Assembly (NCBI GenBank): GCA_944387015.1
Contig: CALXDH010000012.1
Coordinates: 1 to 64,000 of the forward strand
Direction of reading: 5' to 3'
DNA length: 64,000 bases
Source: an uncultured Oscillospiraceae bacterium
GTDB taxonomy: Bacteria > Bacillota > Clostridia > Oscillospirales > Oscillospiraceae
The notes below the pieces were generated by a model. The model searched no databases, was not told where the DNA came from, and was given only the letters and a program-made list of their open reading frames with translations. Position 1 is the stretch's first letter. Each line of letters begins with the position of its first letter. Of the stretch, positions 55,304-63,012 are shown in pieces. Position numbers and translations under genes: made by a program.

Positions 55304-56410
55304 TTATGCCAGGGTCAGGTCTCCCTGCTTGACCCAACCGGCCCGGCAGCACAGCTGGTTGATGAGGGGGCAGAGAATGGCCGGCAGGACGAAACTGATG
55401 AGCAGCAGTCCCGCCCAGTCAAAGGCAGTGGGGGTAATGGCTGCGGCGCCGTTGGCCAAAGCGTCGGCGCTGGGAGAGATCCAGCCGGTCCAAACGCCCA
55501 GCTGGCCGCACAATCCGCAGGTGCCCATGCCGGAGTTGATGGCGGCGCCGTTCATCTCCAGGTGGAAAACGCAGGTGGCGATGGGGCCGGTGATGGCGGA
55601 GGTGAGGGTAGGGGCGATCCAGATCCGGGGATTTTTCACGATGTTGGGCATCTGGAGCATGGAGGTGCCCAGGCCCTGACTGACCAAGCCGCCCCAGCCG
55701 TTTTCCCGGAAGCTCATCACGGCGAAACCCACCATCTGGGCGCAGCATCCCGCCACGGCGGCACCGCCGGCAAGGCCCGTCAATGTCAGGGCAGCGCAGA
55801 TGGCGGCAGAGGAGATGGGCAGCGTCAGGGCGATGCCCACCAGAACGGAGACCAAGATGCCCATGGCAAAGGGCTGCAGCTCCGTGGCGCGCATGATCAG
55901 CTGGCCGAAGGCACTGGCGGCGGTGCCGATGGGAGGTGCGATGAGCCAGGCGGCGCCGATGCCCACTAGAATGGTGACGATGGGGGTCACCAGGATGTCC
56001 ACCTTGGTCTCCTTACTGACGGCCTTGCCGCACTCAGCGGAGATGATGGCCACAAACAGTACGGCCAGCGGGCCGCCAGCCCCGCCCAGGGTGTTGCAGG
56101 CGTACCCAACGGTCACCAGGGAGAAGAGCACCATGGGGGGCGCCTGAAGGGCATAGCCGATGGCTACAGCCATGGCGGAACCGCTCATGAAGGAGGCCAG
56201 GCCGCCAATGGTGTAGCCAACTTCATTGATGGTGACGATCTGGGCGGTGAGGAAGCCGATGTGGAACTGGGTGCCCAGCGTGTTGAGGATGGTACCGATC
56301 AGCAGCGAGCAGAACAAACCCTGTGCCATGGCGCCCAGGGCGTCGATGCCATAGCGCTTGGCGGAGATGACAATGTTTTTGCGTTTTAGAAAAGCCTTGC
56401 ATTTTTCCAT
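55304..56410 (-). CDS. PTS EIIC-like permease without PTS partners; candidate niacin transporter
   Basis: This 368-residue membrane protein resembles the stand-alone PTS_EIIC_2 family: about ten hydrophobic segments, GTILNTLGTQFHIGFLTAQIVTINEVGYTIGG near the start, TNLGGAGGPL-like NTLGGAGGPLAVLF, and MNGAAINSGMGTCGLCGQLGVW late. No EIIA, EIIB or HPr gene is near, and no phosphorylatable domain is fused, so sugar phosphorylation is unlikely. The gene follows niaR on the same strand and has its own promoter overlapped by a 38-bp palindrome. Uptake of niacin or a related NAD precursor is therefore proposed. Start MEKCKAFLK; its ribosome binding site (AGGTG) is weak. Confidence 0.75.
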   Translation of the reverse strand: MEKCKAFLKRKNIVISAKRYGIDALGAMAQGLFCSLLIGTILNTLGTQFHIGFLTAQIVTINEVGYTIGGLASFMSGSAMAVAIGYALQAPPMVLFSLVTVGYACNTLGGAGGPLAVLFVAIISAECGKAVSKETKVDILVTPIVTILVGIGAAWLIAPPIGTAASAFGQLIMRATELQPFAMGILVSVLVGIALTLPISSAAICAALTLTGLAGGAAVAGCCAQMVGFAVMSFRENGWGGLVSQGLGTSMLQMPNIVKNPRIWIAPTLTSAITGPIATCVFHLEMNGAAINSGMGTCGLCGQLGVWTGWISPSADALANGAAAITPTAFDWAGLLLISFVLPAILCPLINQLCCRAGWVKQGDLTLA

Positions 56411-56439
56411 GGGAAGCACCTGTTTCTCTCTCAAAATAA

Positions 56440-56477
56440 ATGTGGTATACAGGTGTCTTGACACCTGTATACCACAT
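56440..56477. promoter_or_regulatory. 38-bp perfect palindrome, candidate NiaR operator
   Basis: Arms of 17 bp (56440-56456 and 56461-56477; ATGTGGTATACAGGTGT and its exact complement) flank CTTG. The inner part AGGTGTCTTGACACCT is a compact symmetric site. The palindrome begins at the -10 of the leftward promoter and covers the start-site region, so a bound protein would block transcription of the permease gene. The adjacent niaR is the obvious candidate regulator. Confidence 0.8.
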
Positions 56478-56504
56478 CTTACACGCAAGAGCTTTCGCTG
56501 TCAA
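56476..56504 (-). promoter_or_regulatory. Promoter of the EIIC-like permease gene
   Basis: On the minus strand TTGACA (56504-56499) and TAAGAT (56481-56476) are 17 bp apart, directly adjoining the palindromic operator. Confidence 0.8.
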
Positions 56505-56557
56505 CCGTCATTTCCACGGAAAATCCGTTTTTTCATGGAGGCAGTCGGCTTAATCCG

Positions 56558-57079
56558 TCAAGCGTCCTGGTCGGACAGCAGGATGCCCAGTTCCCGCAGG
56601 GTCTGCTGGACCCGCCGGAAGGCCTCACTGTCGGGGCAGGACAGGGTGTGGAGATGGATGCCTTCGGTGAGGTTGGACAGGGGCTGGGCGTCGGCGCTGG
56701 CGCAGCGCTTCAAAAACTGCTGGACGTCGTAGCGGCTGGAGAGCTGCAGCGGGCCGGTGAGCTGGCCGTAAAGAGGATGCTCCACGATCACATCCACCAC
56801 GGTGCAGCCCTGGTCCACCATGGCGTTGAGTTCTGCCTCCATACCGTCAGGGCCGTGCTGCACTGCCACCCGGCGGATCAGGCCGGTGGCCGCGGGCAGG
56901 ATCACGTAGCCCCGGGGGGTGGCGGAGATGTCGGCTCCCGCCGCCCGCAGCAGAGCGATGTCCCCCACGATGATCTGCCGGCTGACGGAAAAGCGGCGGG
57001 CCAGCGCCGCGGCGCTGACAGGGATGTCGGTGTTTCTCAAACTGTCCAGAATAGCCCTGCGGCGTTCCTCGGCCTGCAT
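56558..57079 (-). CDS. niaR: NiaR-type transcription repressor (HTH_11 + 3H domain)
   Basis: This 173-residue regulator has an N-terminal winged HTH (RRRAILDSLRNTDIPVSAAALARRFSVSRQIIVGDIALLRAAGADI, about 5-60). A 3H ligand-binding domain follows (about 75-170), named for three conserved His; here EHPLYGQLTGPL, EGIHLHTLSCPD and RRVAVQHG supply candidates. NiaR represses niacin uptake and NAD synthesis genes when niacin is plentiful. AAGGAGG lies upstream of MQAEERR. The downstream permease with its palindromic operator is the likely target. An unrelated HTH_11 regulator is the alternative. Confidence 0.88.
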   Translation of the reverse strand: MQAEERRRAILDSLRNTDIPVSAAALARRFSVSRQIIVGDIALLRAAGADISATPRGYVILPAATGLIRRVAVQHGPDGMEAELNAMVDQGCTVVDVIVEHPLYGQLTGPLQLSSRYDVQQFLKRCASADAQPLSNLTEGIHLHTLSCPDSEAFRRVQQTLRELGILLSDQDA

Positions 57080-57781: not shown

Positions 57782-58492
<711 letters not shown>

Positions 58493-58495
58493 GAC

Positions 58496-59329
<834 letters not shown>

Positions 59330-59330
59330 A

Positions 59331-60401
59331 TCAGGCGGCCTCCTTTTCCTTGGACGCACCGGGCCGCAGGCGGCTCAGCACAGAACGCAGCGTGGGGTTG
59401 TTGGTCAGCAGCATGACCAGGATCAGCACGATGGCGTACACCAGCATCCGGTAGTCGGAGAACTGGCGCAGGGCCTCCGGCAGGATGGTCAGCGCAGCCG
59501 CGGCGATCAGGGAGCCCCAGATGTTGCCCAGGCCGCCCAGCACCACGAACACCAGGATCAAAATGGAGGTGTTGAAGTCGAACTTGGAAGCCTGCAAAGA
59601 GGAGAAGTTCAATCCGTACAGCGCACCGGCAGCACCTGCCAGGGCGGCGGAGGTGACGAAGGCCATCAGCTTGTACTTGGTGAGGTTCAGACCGACGCTC
59701 TCGGCGGCGATGCTGTTGTCCCGCAGGGCCATGATGGCCCGGCCGGCCCGGCTGTCCTTCAGGTTCAGCACCACGAAGAGGGTGATGAGCACCAGCACGA
59801 AGCCGGCGGTGAAGGTGGAGATGGTGGCAGTGCTGGTGGCGCCCTGAGCGCCCTTGATGATGGCGATGCCCTCGGTCTCCAGGCCCAGATCGGCGATGGA
59901 CTTGTCGCCGGTGAGGTTCAGCGCCACATGGAGGCCCCGGGAATCCCAGCCCACCAGCAGGCAGTTGACCAGTTCCTTGATGATCTCGCCGAAGGCCAGC
60001 GTCACGATGGCCAGATAGTCGCCCCGCAGACGCAGCACCGGGGTACCGATGACCACGCCGGCCACGGCAGCCACAGCGGCGCCCACGAGCATGGCGACTG
60101 CCAGACGCAGGGCGTCGGAGGGGATGGCGCTTTGCAGGCTCATGGCGGCGATGACGCCGGAGAAGGCGCCCACGCTCATGAAACCGGCGTGGCCCAGGCT
60201 CAGTTCACCCAGGATACCCACGGTCAGGTTCAGGGAGACGGCCATGGACATGTAGCAGCAGATAGGGACCAGCTGTCCGGTGAGGGACCGGGAGAGGCCG
60301 CCGGAATCCCGCAGGATCACCGTGGCGGCGAAGGCAATGATGACGCCCAGGTAGGTGATGAGATTGGTGCGGGTAGAACGCTTCATAGATCTGATTTTCA
60401 T
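59331..60401 (-). CDS. livM: Branched-chain amino-acid ABC transporter permease LivM
   Basis: This 356-residue permease has about nine to ten membrane helices and the LivM motif LNLTVGILGELSLGHAGFMSVGAFSG, with the EAA-like loop in MALRDNSIAAESVGLNLTKYKL. GAGGTG precedes the ATG at MKIRSMKR. It pairs with LivH to form the pore. Confidence 0.95.
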   Translation of the reverse strand: MKIRSMKRSTRTNLITYLGVIIAFAATVILRDSGGLSRSLTGQLVPICCYMSMAVSLNLTVGILGELSLGHAGFMSVGAFSGVIAAMSLQSAIPSDALRLAVAMLVGAAVAAVAGVVIGTPVLRLRGDYLAIVTLAFGEIIKELVNCLLVGWDSRGLHVALNLTGDKSIADLGLETEGIAIIKGAQGATSTATISTFTAGFVLVLITLFVVLNLKDSRAGRAIMALRDNSIAAESVGLNLTKYKLMAFVTSAALAGAAGALYGLNFSSLQASKFDFNTSILILVFVVLGGLGNIWGSLIAAAALTILPEALRQFSDYRMLVYAIVLILVMLLTNNPTLRSVLSRLRPGASKEKEAA

Positions 60402-60411
60402 TGTGCGCACC

Positions 60412-61290
60412 TCACACTTTCTCCGGCACATACCGGCCCAGCAGGCCGGCGGGTTTGACCAGCAGCACCACGATCAGCACGGCAAACACGATGGAGTTTG
60501 CCAGGTTCGTGGAGATGTAGGCCTTGGCCATGGCCTCGATGATGCCCAGCAGCAGTCCGCCCAGGAAGGCGCCGGGGATGGAGCCGATGCCGCCGAACAC
60601 GGCGGCAGTGAAGGCCTTGATGCCGGGCATGGAGCCGGTGGTGGGCATCAGGGTGGGATAGGAGGAGCACAGCAGCACGCCGGCGATGGCCGCCAGGGCG
60701 GAGCCGATGGCAAAGGTCATGGAGATGGTGGCGTTGACGTTGATGCCCATGAGCTGTGCAGCGCCCTTATCCTCGGAGCAGGCCCGCATGGCCTTGCCCA
60801 TCTTGCTCATGTTGGTGAAGGCGGTGAGGGCCACCATGATCACGAGGCACACCACCACGGTCAAAATGGAGACATAGGGGATCTTCAGCGCGCCGCCGAA
60901 GAGGGAGAGGGAGCCGGAGATGATGGGGGTGTAGACCTTGGGTGCGGCGGACCAGACGAGCAGGGCCGCGTTCTGCAGGAAATAGCTCACACCGATGGCG
61001 GTGATGAGCACTGCCAGGGAAGGAGCTGCCCGCAGGGGCTTGTAGGCCAGACCCTCGATCACCACGCCCAGAACCGTGCAAACCAGCATGGCAAGGATGA
61101 TCCCCACGATGCTGGGCAGGCCCAGGTAGTTCATAGCGCAGAAGGAGATGTAGCCGCCCACCATGATGATGTCGCCGTGGGCGAAGTTGAGCATCTTGGC
61201 GATGCCGTAGACCATGGTATAGCCCAGGGCGATGATGGCGTACACGCTGCCCAGGCTGATTCCGCTGATTAAATAAGAGAGAAATTCCAT
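60412..61290 (-). CDS. livH: Branched-chain amino-acid ABC transporter permease LivH
   Basis: This 292-residue permease starts with the typical ISGISLGSVYAIIALGYTMVYGIAKMLNFAHGDIIMVGGYI and has about eight helices; the ATPase-contact loop is MRACSEDKGAAQLMGINVN. It lies 173 bp after livK, separated by a strong stem-loop, and ten bases before livM. Confidence 0.95.
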   Translation of the reverse strand: MEFLSYLISGISLGSVYAIIALGYTMVYGIAKMLNFAHGDIIMVGGYISFCAMNYLGLPSIVGIILAMLVCTVLGVVIEGLAYKPLRAAPSLAVLITAIGVSYFLQNAALLVWSAAPKVYTPIISGSLSLFGGALKIPYVSILTVVVCLVIMVALTAFTNMSKMGKAMRACSEDKGAAQLMGINVNATISMTFAIGSALAAIAGVLLCSSYPTLMPTTGSMPGIKAFTAAVFGGIGSIPGAFLGGLLLGIIEAMAKAYISTNLANSIVFAVLIVVLLVKPAGLLGRYVPEKV

Positions 61291-61400
61291 GAGACATATA
61301 CCTCTTTATCTCTGGGATTGGATGGAATGGAAGCCTTCCATAGCAGAAATGCGGACGGAGCGGATGTTCCGCCCAGATTTCCGCCATGGAGACGGCGGGA

Positions 61401-61445
61401 CGTGCGGCGGGCCGGCCGGAAATTTCCGGCCGGCCGTGCCGCACG
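61401..61445 (-). other. Strong stem-loop between livK and livH
   Basis: An outer stem CGTGCGGC/GCCGCACG encloses an inner GGCCGGCCGGA/TCCGGCCGGCC stem with an AATT centre. No T run follows on the minus strand, so it is better explained as an mRNA 3'-end stabiliser that raises binding-protein levels over the permeases. Confidence 0.65.
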
Positions 61446-61463
61446 GAGATCAGAAGGACGTGA

Positions 61464-62636
61464 TCAGGGCAGAACGTAGGTGCCGTTTTCGATGACCACG
61501 GCCATGGGCTCCTTGGAGACAGCGCCGGAGGCATCCCAGGTCATGCCGGCGCCGGTCAGACCGTCCACAGACAGAGTGGGCATCACAGCCACAACCGCCT
61601 CGCAGATGTCGGTGGAGGACATGTCGGGGGTGCATTCGGCAGCTTCCAGAGCGGCCTTGAGGATGTACACGGCGTCATAGGCGTCGGCGGCGAACTGGTT
61701 GGGGGTGTCGTCGAACTCTTCCTGATAGCTCTTGACGAAGTTCTGGGTCCGCTCATCCTGGGCATCGGCGGAGAAGGGGGTCAGCAGCATGACGCCCTCG
61801 GCCAGAGAGGTGTCAAAGCCCTCCATGGTCAAAATGCCGTCCATGCCGTCCACGCCGAAGAAGGTGGGCGCATAGCCCATGGCGTTGGCCTGGTTGAGGA
61901 TGACGGAGGCGGGCTGATAGTAGATGGGCAGGAACACCAGGTCAGCGCCGGCGGACTGGGCACCGGTCAGCTGCACGGAGAAGTCGGTGGCGGTGTCCTT
62001 GGTGAAGGTGCCCTCATAGACCACGTTCAGACCCTTGGCGGCAGCCTCGGTCACGAAGGTGTCGTGGATGCCCTGGGAGTAGGCGTCGTCGTTGCGGTAG
62101 ATGATGGCGATCTTGGCGTCGGGCATGTTCTCAGCCATGTAGTCGGCGGAGCCGGTGCCCTGGTTGGGGTCGGTGAAGCAGACCTGGAACACATTGTCCT
62201 TGCCGTCAATGACGTCGGTGGAGGAGGCGGAGGGGGTCAGCATGAAGGTCCGGTCCGTGTTGGTCACTGCGGAGACCGCCTGGGCGGCACCGGTGGTGGT
62301 GGGGCCAACCAGCAGCTGCATGCCCCAGTCCATCAGCTTGTTGTAGGCGTTGACGGAGGTCTCACCGTCGGCCACGTCGTCCTGGCTCTGGAGCTCAAAC
62401 TTGATGGAGCTGTCGCTGGCGTTGATCTCCTCCACGGCGATCTTGGCGCCGTTGGCGACGGCCAGGCCGTAGATAGCGTTCTCACCGGTCAGGGGGCCGA
62501 TGGTGCCGATCTTGAAGGTGGTGCCGGAAGCGGAATCATCGCTGCCGGTGTCGGTGGTGTCGGCGCTGCTGCCGCAGGCAGCCAGGCCGAGGACCATGGC
62601 GGCGGCCATGACGAGACTGAGCAACTTCTTTTTCAT
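61464..62636 (-). CDS. livK: Branched-chain amino-acid binding lipoprotein LivK
   Basis: This 390-residue lipoprotein has a signal peptide with lipobox LAAC near residue 22 and an acidic, Ser/Thr-rich linker. The Peripla_BP_6 fold follows (FKIGTIGPLTGENAIYGLAVANGAKIAVEEIN, LLVGPTTTGAAQAVSAV, VCFTDPNQGTGSADYM, IIYRNDDAYSQGI). It delivers leucine, isoleucine, valine or related amino acids to LivHM. AAAAGGAG stands before the ATG. Confidence 0.95.
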   Translation of the reverse strand: MKKKLLSLVMAAAMVLGLAACGSSADTTDTGSDDSASGTTFKIGTIGPLTGENAIYGLAVANGAKIAVEEINASDSSIKFELQSQDDVADGETSVNAYNKLMDWGMQLLVGPTTTGAAQAVSAVTNTDRTFMLTPSASSTDVIDGKDNVFQVCFTDPNQGTGSADYMAENMPDAKIAIIYRNDDAYSQGIHDTFVTEAAAKGLNVVYEGTFTKDTATDFSVQLTGAQSAGADLVFLPIYYQPASVILNQANAMGYAPTFFGVDGMDGILTMEGFDTSLAEGVMLLTPFSADAQDERTQNFVKSYQEEFDDTPNQFAADAYDAVYILKAALEAAECTPDMSSTDICEAVVAVMPTLSVDGLTGAGMTWDASGAVSKEPMAVVIENGTYVLP

Positions 62637-62670
62637 CGTTCGTTTCTCCTTTTGACAATGGAATTTATAC

Positions 62671-62702
62671 AAAAAAGCGGCCCCGCCATTGGGCGGAGCC
62701 GC
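62671..62702 (-). terminator. Terminator between the small hydrophobic gene and livK
   Basis: On the minus strand GCGGCTCCGCC pairs with GGCGGGGCCGC (one G-T pair), followed by TTTTTTG. It lies 17 bp after the small gene and 35 bp before livK. No separate livK promoter is clear, so readthrough past it may feed the liv operon. Confidence 0.8.
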
Positions 62703-62718
62703 ATTTCTGTCCAAACAG

Positions 62719-63012
62719 TTATGCGCGCGTTCGCATCCAAGGCGTACGTTGTCTTCCAAAAATCACCAGCACCAATACCAGAGCCAGCAGGAAGTTTACC
62801 AGAACCAGATTGGATACCAGGGTAATCAGGCCAATCAGGGTTACCAGGGTAATAATAATGGACGCCATAATAATGGCGTCCAGAATGGAGATAATGGCAT
62901 TGTGAGAGGCAGACTGCGTGCAGGCAGAAGCAGCCGCAGCGGTACGGGCAGAAGATGCACGCTGAGACATCGTGTAATCCATATGCATCTGCTTCATGGA
63001 AGACTGCATCAT
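62719..63012 (-). CDS. Small hydrophobic protein of unknown function
   Basis: This 97-residue product has a Met/Ser/Ala-rich N-terminus (MMQSSMKQMHMDYTMSQ) and a long hydrophobic stretch of about 45 residues (IISILDAIIMASIIITLVTL...LALVLVLVIF), enough for two membrane helices, then RQRTPWMRTRA. AAAAGGAG lies nine bases upstream of ATG 63012, and a consensus promoter and a terminator bracket it, all supporting a real gene. I do not recognise the family. An open frame on the opposite strand lacks these signals. Confidence 0.65.
   Translation of the reverse strand: MMQSSMKQMHMDYTMSQRASSARTAAAASACTQSASHNAIISILDAIIMASIIITLVTLIGLITLVSNLVLVNFLLALVLVLVIFGRQRTPWMRTRA

Follow-up and report, generated by a model that had tools for sequence, protein, structure and literature searches.

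A NiaR-associated permease of the PTS_EIIC_2 family is a probable niacin importer in Clostridia

A stretch of 64,000 nucleotides from an uncultured Oscillospiraceae bacterium (assembly GCA_944387015.1, contig CALXDH010000012.1; the whole stretch is hereafter called the window, and the genome it belongs to the host genome) contains a minus-strand gene with an ATG start (55304..56410) for a 368-amino-acid permease of the Pfam family PF13303 (PTS_EIIC_2). Beside it on the same strand lies a gene for a predicted niacin-responsive repressor of 173 amino acids, NiaR (56558..57079). We consider it probable that the permease imports niacin (nicotinate and/or nicotinamide) independently of the phosphotransferase system (PTS) and is repressed by the neighboring predicted NiaR via a palindrome. 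Judged from sequence, regulation of the permease by NiaR is near certain, and the genomic context suggests its substrate and its role in transport. The initial annotation of this DNA had taken a stand-alone enzyme IIC (EIIC)-type protein under NiaR as a possible importer of niacin or of some other precursor of nicotinamide adenine dinucleotide (NAD). This proposal is supported by the recurrence of the arrangement in related genomes and, in the host genome, by the lack of a detectable NadA, the presence of PncB, and the lack of a detectable Enzyme I.

The repressor consists of an HTH_11 domain (PF08279, E = 4e-14) and a 3H domain (PF02829, E = 7e-35), and it aligned over nearly its whole length with the solved sequences 9ebr, 1j5y, and 7cv0 (E = 4e-41 to 3e-36). 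The first of these is titled ‘Probable transcription repressor NiaR’ and the last ‘Transcriptional regulator NiaR’, and 1j5y is identified in passages of PMC7713382 as TM1602 of Thermotoga maritima. When the 3H domain was aligned with 9ebr and 1j5y, a His, a Glu eight residues on, and an HxH motif (HLH in this protein) were found to be retained. The same passages assign these residues roles in holding the metal and niacin, and state that DNA binding by NiaR occurs in the presence of niacin (PMC7713382). The description of the permease gene as lying directly downstream of a NiaR-type repressor gene was borne out.

Upstream of the permease gene, positions 56440..56477 form a perfect palindrome, the predicted type I NiaR operator, in which two 18-bp arms (56440-56457 and 56460-56477) flank a 2-nt centre. 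The arms are 100% complementary. Of 6 inverted repeats that were listed for a stretch of 12 kb, this is the longest perfect one; one other repeat had 20-nt arms at 90%. The centre of the palindrome, TGTCTTGACA, matches the type I NiaR motif TGT-N4-ACA given in PMC7713382. When the 20-base operator core (56449..56468) was used as the query for a search of the 2.42-Mb host genome with 3 or fewer mismatches allowed, it occurred at a single place, and the reversed pattern occurred 0 times. A predicted promoter on the minus strand, TTGACA-17-TAAGAT (56476..56504), has the last two bases of its -10 box inside the palindrome, and this is a usual place for a repressor. One promoter-like pair was found in 951 bases, compared with a mean of 0.3 in shuffled sequences.

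When the site in the window was compared with its counterparts at 20 related loci, the outer arms of the palindrome, beyond the NiaR core, were found to vary between genomes and yet to remain complementary more often than expected: 95 of 189 outer-arm pairs were complementary, compared with 64.7 on re-pairing, and none of 20,000 re-pairings reached a value as high. In several loci the palindrome reaches into the -10 box, and a T-rich stretch comes after it; a further role as a hairpin or terminator, besides that of operator, is suggested. A second operator form, AGGTGACAAGACAGGTGTA, in which the half-site is arranged more as a direct than as an inverted repeat, was found upstream of the permease in L013, L016, L018, L020, L029, and other loci, and several of these genomes have an adjacent niaR.

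To place the locus in a wider setting, we used a sample of 196 genomes, many of them in numerous contigs, whose class we infer from named relatives to be Clostridia. PF13303 was above the cut-off in 93 of the 196 genomes and the 3H domain in 69, with both in 40; by eye from coordinates, niaR lay on the same strand within ~0.5 kb upstream of the permease in 13 of these 40. Upstream stretches were taken for all 93 permeases, and 92 were long enough to be scored (G116, where the contig stops at the gene, was dropped). The score threshold of 0.72 is the 99th percentile of the scores from 1,800 mononucleotide shuffles, which were made from 90 upstream stretches. An operator-like site above this threshold was present in 24 of 39 permease genomes with NiaR and in 0 of 53 without it (p = 3e-12). 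The operator consensus was composed after 31 of the 93 permease genomes and 80 named loci had been viewed; when these 31 were excluded, the remaining 61 genomes, which may share species with the named loci, gave 6 of 16 and 0 of 45, respectively (p = 1.4e-4). Among the named loci (79 of 80 scored), the site was found in 11 of 12 with an adjacent niaR and in 16 of 67 without. Because niaR was non-adjacent in 12 of the 24 site-bearing genomes, adjacency does not account for the site. The initial annotation had proposed to check the recurrence of the niaR-permease pair and the palindrome, and the pair and the operator do recur in related genomes.

When presence of the site was mapped on a tree of 110 permeases, 22 changes were required, and well-supported branches forced 16 of these; permeases with and without this regulation are therefore interleaved. 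In a phylogeny-aware pair test, for which 30 rows were used, a mean of 4.2 of 5 pairs pointed in the expected direction and none in the opposite one. Where niaR was non-adjacent, 20 neighboring proteins were scanned, 10 of them at seven loci in genomes that lack 3H and 10 at loci in genomes that have 3H elsewhere, and no NAD-synthesis family was found among them. As a separate observation on the tree, the permease of L050, from a record titled Fusobacterium naviforme ATCC 25832, falls among Lachnospiraceae, and either the record name or the placement may be wrong.

Quinolinate synthase (NadA) is required for NAD synthesis from scratch. The NAD-related families searched were NadA, QRPTase_N (NadC), PncB (PF17767), PnuC, and the energy-coupling factor (ECF) S family PF12822. 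NadA was not detected in the host genome, and NadC was not clear, the single QRPTase_N match being weak (E = 3.9e-4) and of the kind that the host PncB gives; the outcome of this check, which the initial annotation had proposed, supports its reading. PnuC was not detected in the host genome either, and the nicotinate phosphoribosyltransferase PncB (489 amino acids) is present. In the class sample, the permease was found in 65 of 115 genomes without NadA and in 28 of 81 with it (p = 0.0036), and the corresponding numbers for genomes without 3H were 47 of 88 and 6 of 39 (p = 7e-5). When NiaR and the permease were both present, the site occurred in 18 of 18 genomes without NadA and in 6 of 21 with NadA (p = 2e-6). 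The permease also co-occurred with PncB overall (p = 0.015). Nine permease genomes with NiaR had neither NadA nor PF17767 PncB; the three examined (G019, G054, and G036) carry instead a 344-362-amino-acid nicotinate phosphoribosyltransferase of NF006415, and nicotinate salvage is therefore retained in them. NF006415 proteins at L175, L176, and L177 were read by Pfam as quinolinate phosphoribosyltransferase, and such proteins are easily confused with NadC.

These observations can be combined into a mechanism. When niacin is plentiful, NiaR would bind the palindrome over the promoter and the permease gene would be repressed, and at low niacin the repressor would leave the operator and the permease would be made. 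The EIIC-type fold may then carry niacin through the membrane in an elevator-like movement, either facilitated or ion-coupled. Inside the cell, PncB would convert nicotinate to nicotinate mononucleotide and thereby trap the substrate, so that phosphoribosylation would take the place of the PTS phosphorylation used by ordinary EIICs.

The permease itself matched PF13303 with E = 1.6e-86 (290.8 bits; cut-off 28.9) and no second Pfam family at E ≤ 0.01, neither the major facilitator superfamily (MFS) as in NiaP nor ECF S as in NiaX, and it is the only PF13303 copy in the host genome. Its predicted structure (predicted local distance difference test score 93.4) has an EIIC fold, with the EIICs of the glucose superfamily as the closest folds. 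When PDB sequences were searched with the profile of the permease, a single chance row was returned. A sugar-site His and Glu are known from EIIC structures; the His was looked for in a 60-row permease alignment, and none is present in its invariant and near-invariant columns. Consistent with the initial description of a stand-alone EIIC-type protein without a PTS partner, no EIIA or EIIB domain was found in the 5 proteins scanned, which included the permease and NiaR. Enzyme I (PF05524) was not found in the host genome, which is 99.58% complete. That Enzyme I is missing from the assembly only is less likely, given this completeness and its absence from 57 of the other 92 permease genomes.

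Several results weigh against a PTS-independent niacin importer under NiaR. More than half of the permease genomes (53 of 93) have no 3H protein above the cut-off and none of these 53 has the site, which indicates that the permease is often outside NiaR control; the site is also absent in 15 of the 39 scored permease genomes with NiaR. The phylogeny-aware pair test is underpowered and cannot reach significance (median p = 0.125). Within 3H genomes the permease is not tied to NadA loss (18 of 27 without NadA and 22 of 42 with it, p = 0.32), and within genomes lacking NadA its tie to PncB is not significant (p = 0.36). Two permease genomes, G131 (65% complete) and G177 (93%), have no NadA, no PF17767 PncB, and no QRPTase_N match. 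The host has seven PF12822 (ECF S) matches, five of them above the cut-off, and one of the seven could carry niacin; the operator was found at none of the six examined. HPr, which has a regulatory use in some bacteria, is present in the host, with GLHARP and AKSLLG motifs recognizable by eye. Finally, the host genome contains two ordinary EIIC genes, both on the probably foreign contig C71. Apart from these points, an ECF S component on host contig C17 (L183) has no NCBIfam match, and its substrate may be niacin.

Contig C71 (L196, 1-10173) has a G+C content of 0.397, compared with 0.571-0.648 in six samples including the window (62%). By tetranucleotide profile it lies at a distance of 0.757 from the window, compared with ≤0.22 for pieces of the window and a piece of C29. 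On the basis of this low G+C content and this distance, the contig is probably foreign, and we rejected the interpretation that the host has PTS sugar permeases of its own. No near match to C71 was found in plasmid or E. coli collections. One of its PTS_EIIC genes is split by an in-frame TAG, and two other genes resemble 6-phospho-glycosidases by eye. The contig is a warning for the annotation of the host genome.

If the protein were instead a true PTS sugar permease that uses a remote EIIA/EIIB, its adjacency to niaR would be incidental. The EIIC fold of the model, the host HPr, the presence of Enzyme I in 35 of 93 permease genomes, and the position of the permease in Lachnospira eligens, where ptsP lies ~1.3 kb upstream of it and a peptide deformylase gene separates the two, are all in line with this explanation. 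However, because Enzyme I is not detectable in the host, a remote EIIA/EIIB would have no phosphate source, and Enzyme I was likewise not found in 58 of the 93 permease genomes. Moreover, the site tracks NiaR, while Enzyme I is absent in 14 of the 24 site-bearing genomes. Comparison of the permease profile with E. coli PtsG, NagE, and MalX gave a probability of 4%, these sequences being too distant, and the alignment contains no invariant histidine. A sugar permease is therefore very improbable. It is less improbable, though still unlikely, that the substrate of this NiaR-regulated transporter is another NAD-linked compound, namely nicotinamide riboside or quinolinate, or else a breakdown product that is exported. 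Control by NiaR implies a link to an NAD precursor and does not tell which one, and passages of PMC6593275 state that no transporter is known for gut bacteria that salvage quinolinate. Nevertheless, the host has PncB, and its weak QRPTase_N match resembles that of PncB itself; quinolinate was rejected as the substrate in the host because there is no clear NadC. PnuC was not detected in the host, riboside kinase not being part of that search, and G019, G054, and G036 have the NF006415 nicotinate phosphoribosyltransferase.

A further alternative concerns novelty only and is compatible with niacin import: the permease may well belong to NiaY, an already predicted family of NiaR-regulated niacin transporters, although we place this slightly below an even chance. 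Its name in SEED is ‘nicotinate-regulated transporter BH3254’. Passages of PMC5343564 present NiaY as a membrane protein that is linked to NiaR and occurs in five Bacilli and Clostridia genomes, PMC6593275 lists it as a vitamin B3 transporter, and PMC12735969 attributes nicotinate and nicotinamide uptake in Streptococcus sobrinus to it. However, the passages of PMC5343564, PMC6593275, PMC7713382, and PMC12735969 do not state the sequence family of NiaY. No literature was found under BH3254 or the SEED name, and the passage found for PF13303 concerns the sugar PTS. Among the best 120 rows of relatives, few of which were named, the names were of the type ‘PTS (sugar) transporter subunit IIC’ or ‘uncharacterized’, and none was NiaY.

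NiaP is an MFS transporter, and NiaX is an ECF S component that belongs to the NiaR regulon in streptococci. The permease shares its predicted role and NiaR control with NiaP but differs in transporter family, being PF13303 only. Similarly, a predicted role and a NiaR operator are shared with NiaX (passages of PMC5343564), but the permease is a 368-amino-acid EIIC-type protein without an ECF match. With NiaY it has in common NiaR control and a range in Bacilli and Clostridia, and possibly the family itself; these three are the NiaR-linked transporters named in passages of PMC5343564, PMC6593275, and PMC7713382. Its predicted fold is like that of the glucose-superfamily PTS EIICs (PtsG, bcMalT, and ChbC), whereas no Enzyme I was found in its host, no sequence relation was found, no histidine is invariant, and a vitamin regulator is adjacent. 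Other PF13303 proteins, called ‘PfoR-like’, are of the same sequence family, but the L003 branch and the Listeria branch are only 27-29% identical, and the Listeria gene has LysR- and GntR-type neighbors. In the window, the five genes beyond niaR (57782-62759, minus strand), seen as open reading frames only, resemble by eye a branched-chain amino acid ATP-binding cassette importer.

Literature searches on EIIC vitamin transport found no EIIC-fold vitamin importer. Should NiaY belong to PF13303, the function has long been predicted, and class-wide evidence and a fold are added here; if NiaY lies outside PF13303, this permease family is new as a niacin transporter. According to passages of PMC6593275, only 25% of the B3-auxotrophic genomes in a human gut collection had a confidently identified transporter of the three known families, NiaP, NiaX, and NiaY. 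Since the permease is present in 65 of 115 genomes without NadA, it could account for some of the niacin uptake that is still unexplained in Clostridia, and it is likely to be a vitamin B3 uptake route in many of them. More tentatively, and with slightly less than even confidence, we propose that an EIIC-fold protein left the PTS, became a stand-alone B3 importer driven by PncB trapping, and is the main niacin entry of NAD-auxotrophic Clostridia, filling much of the gap left by NiaP and NiaX. If true, gene names like ‘PTS sugar transporter subunit IIC’ would be corrected, and the EIIC fold would be seen to work without phosphoryl transfer.
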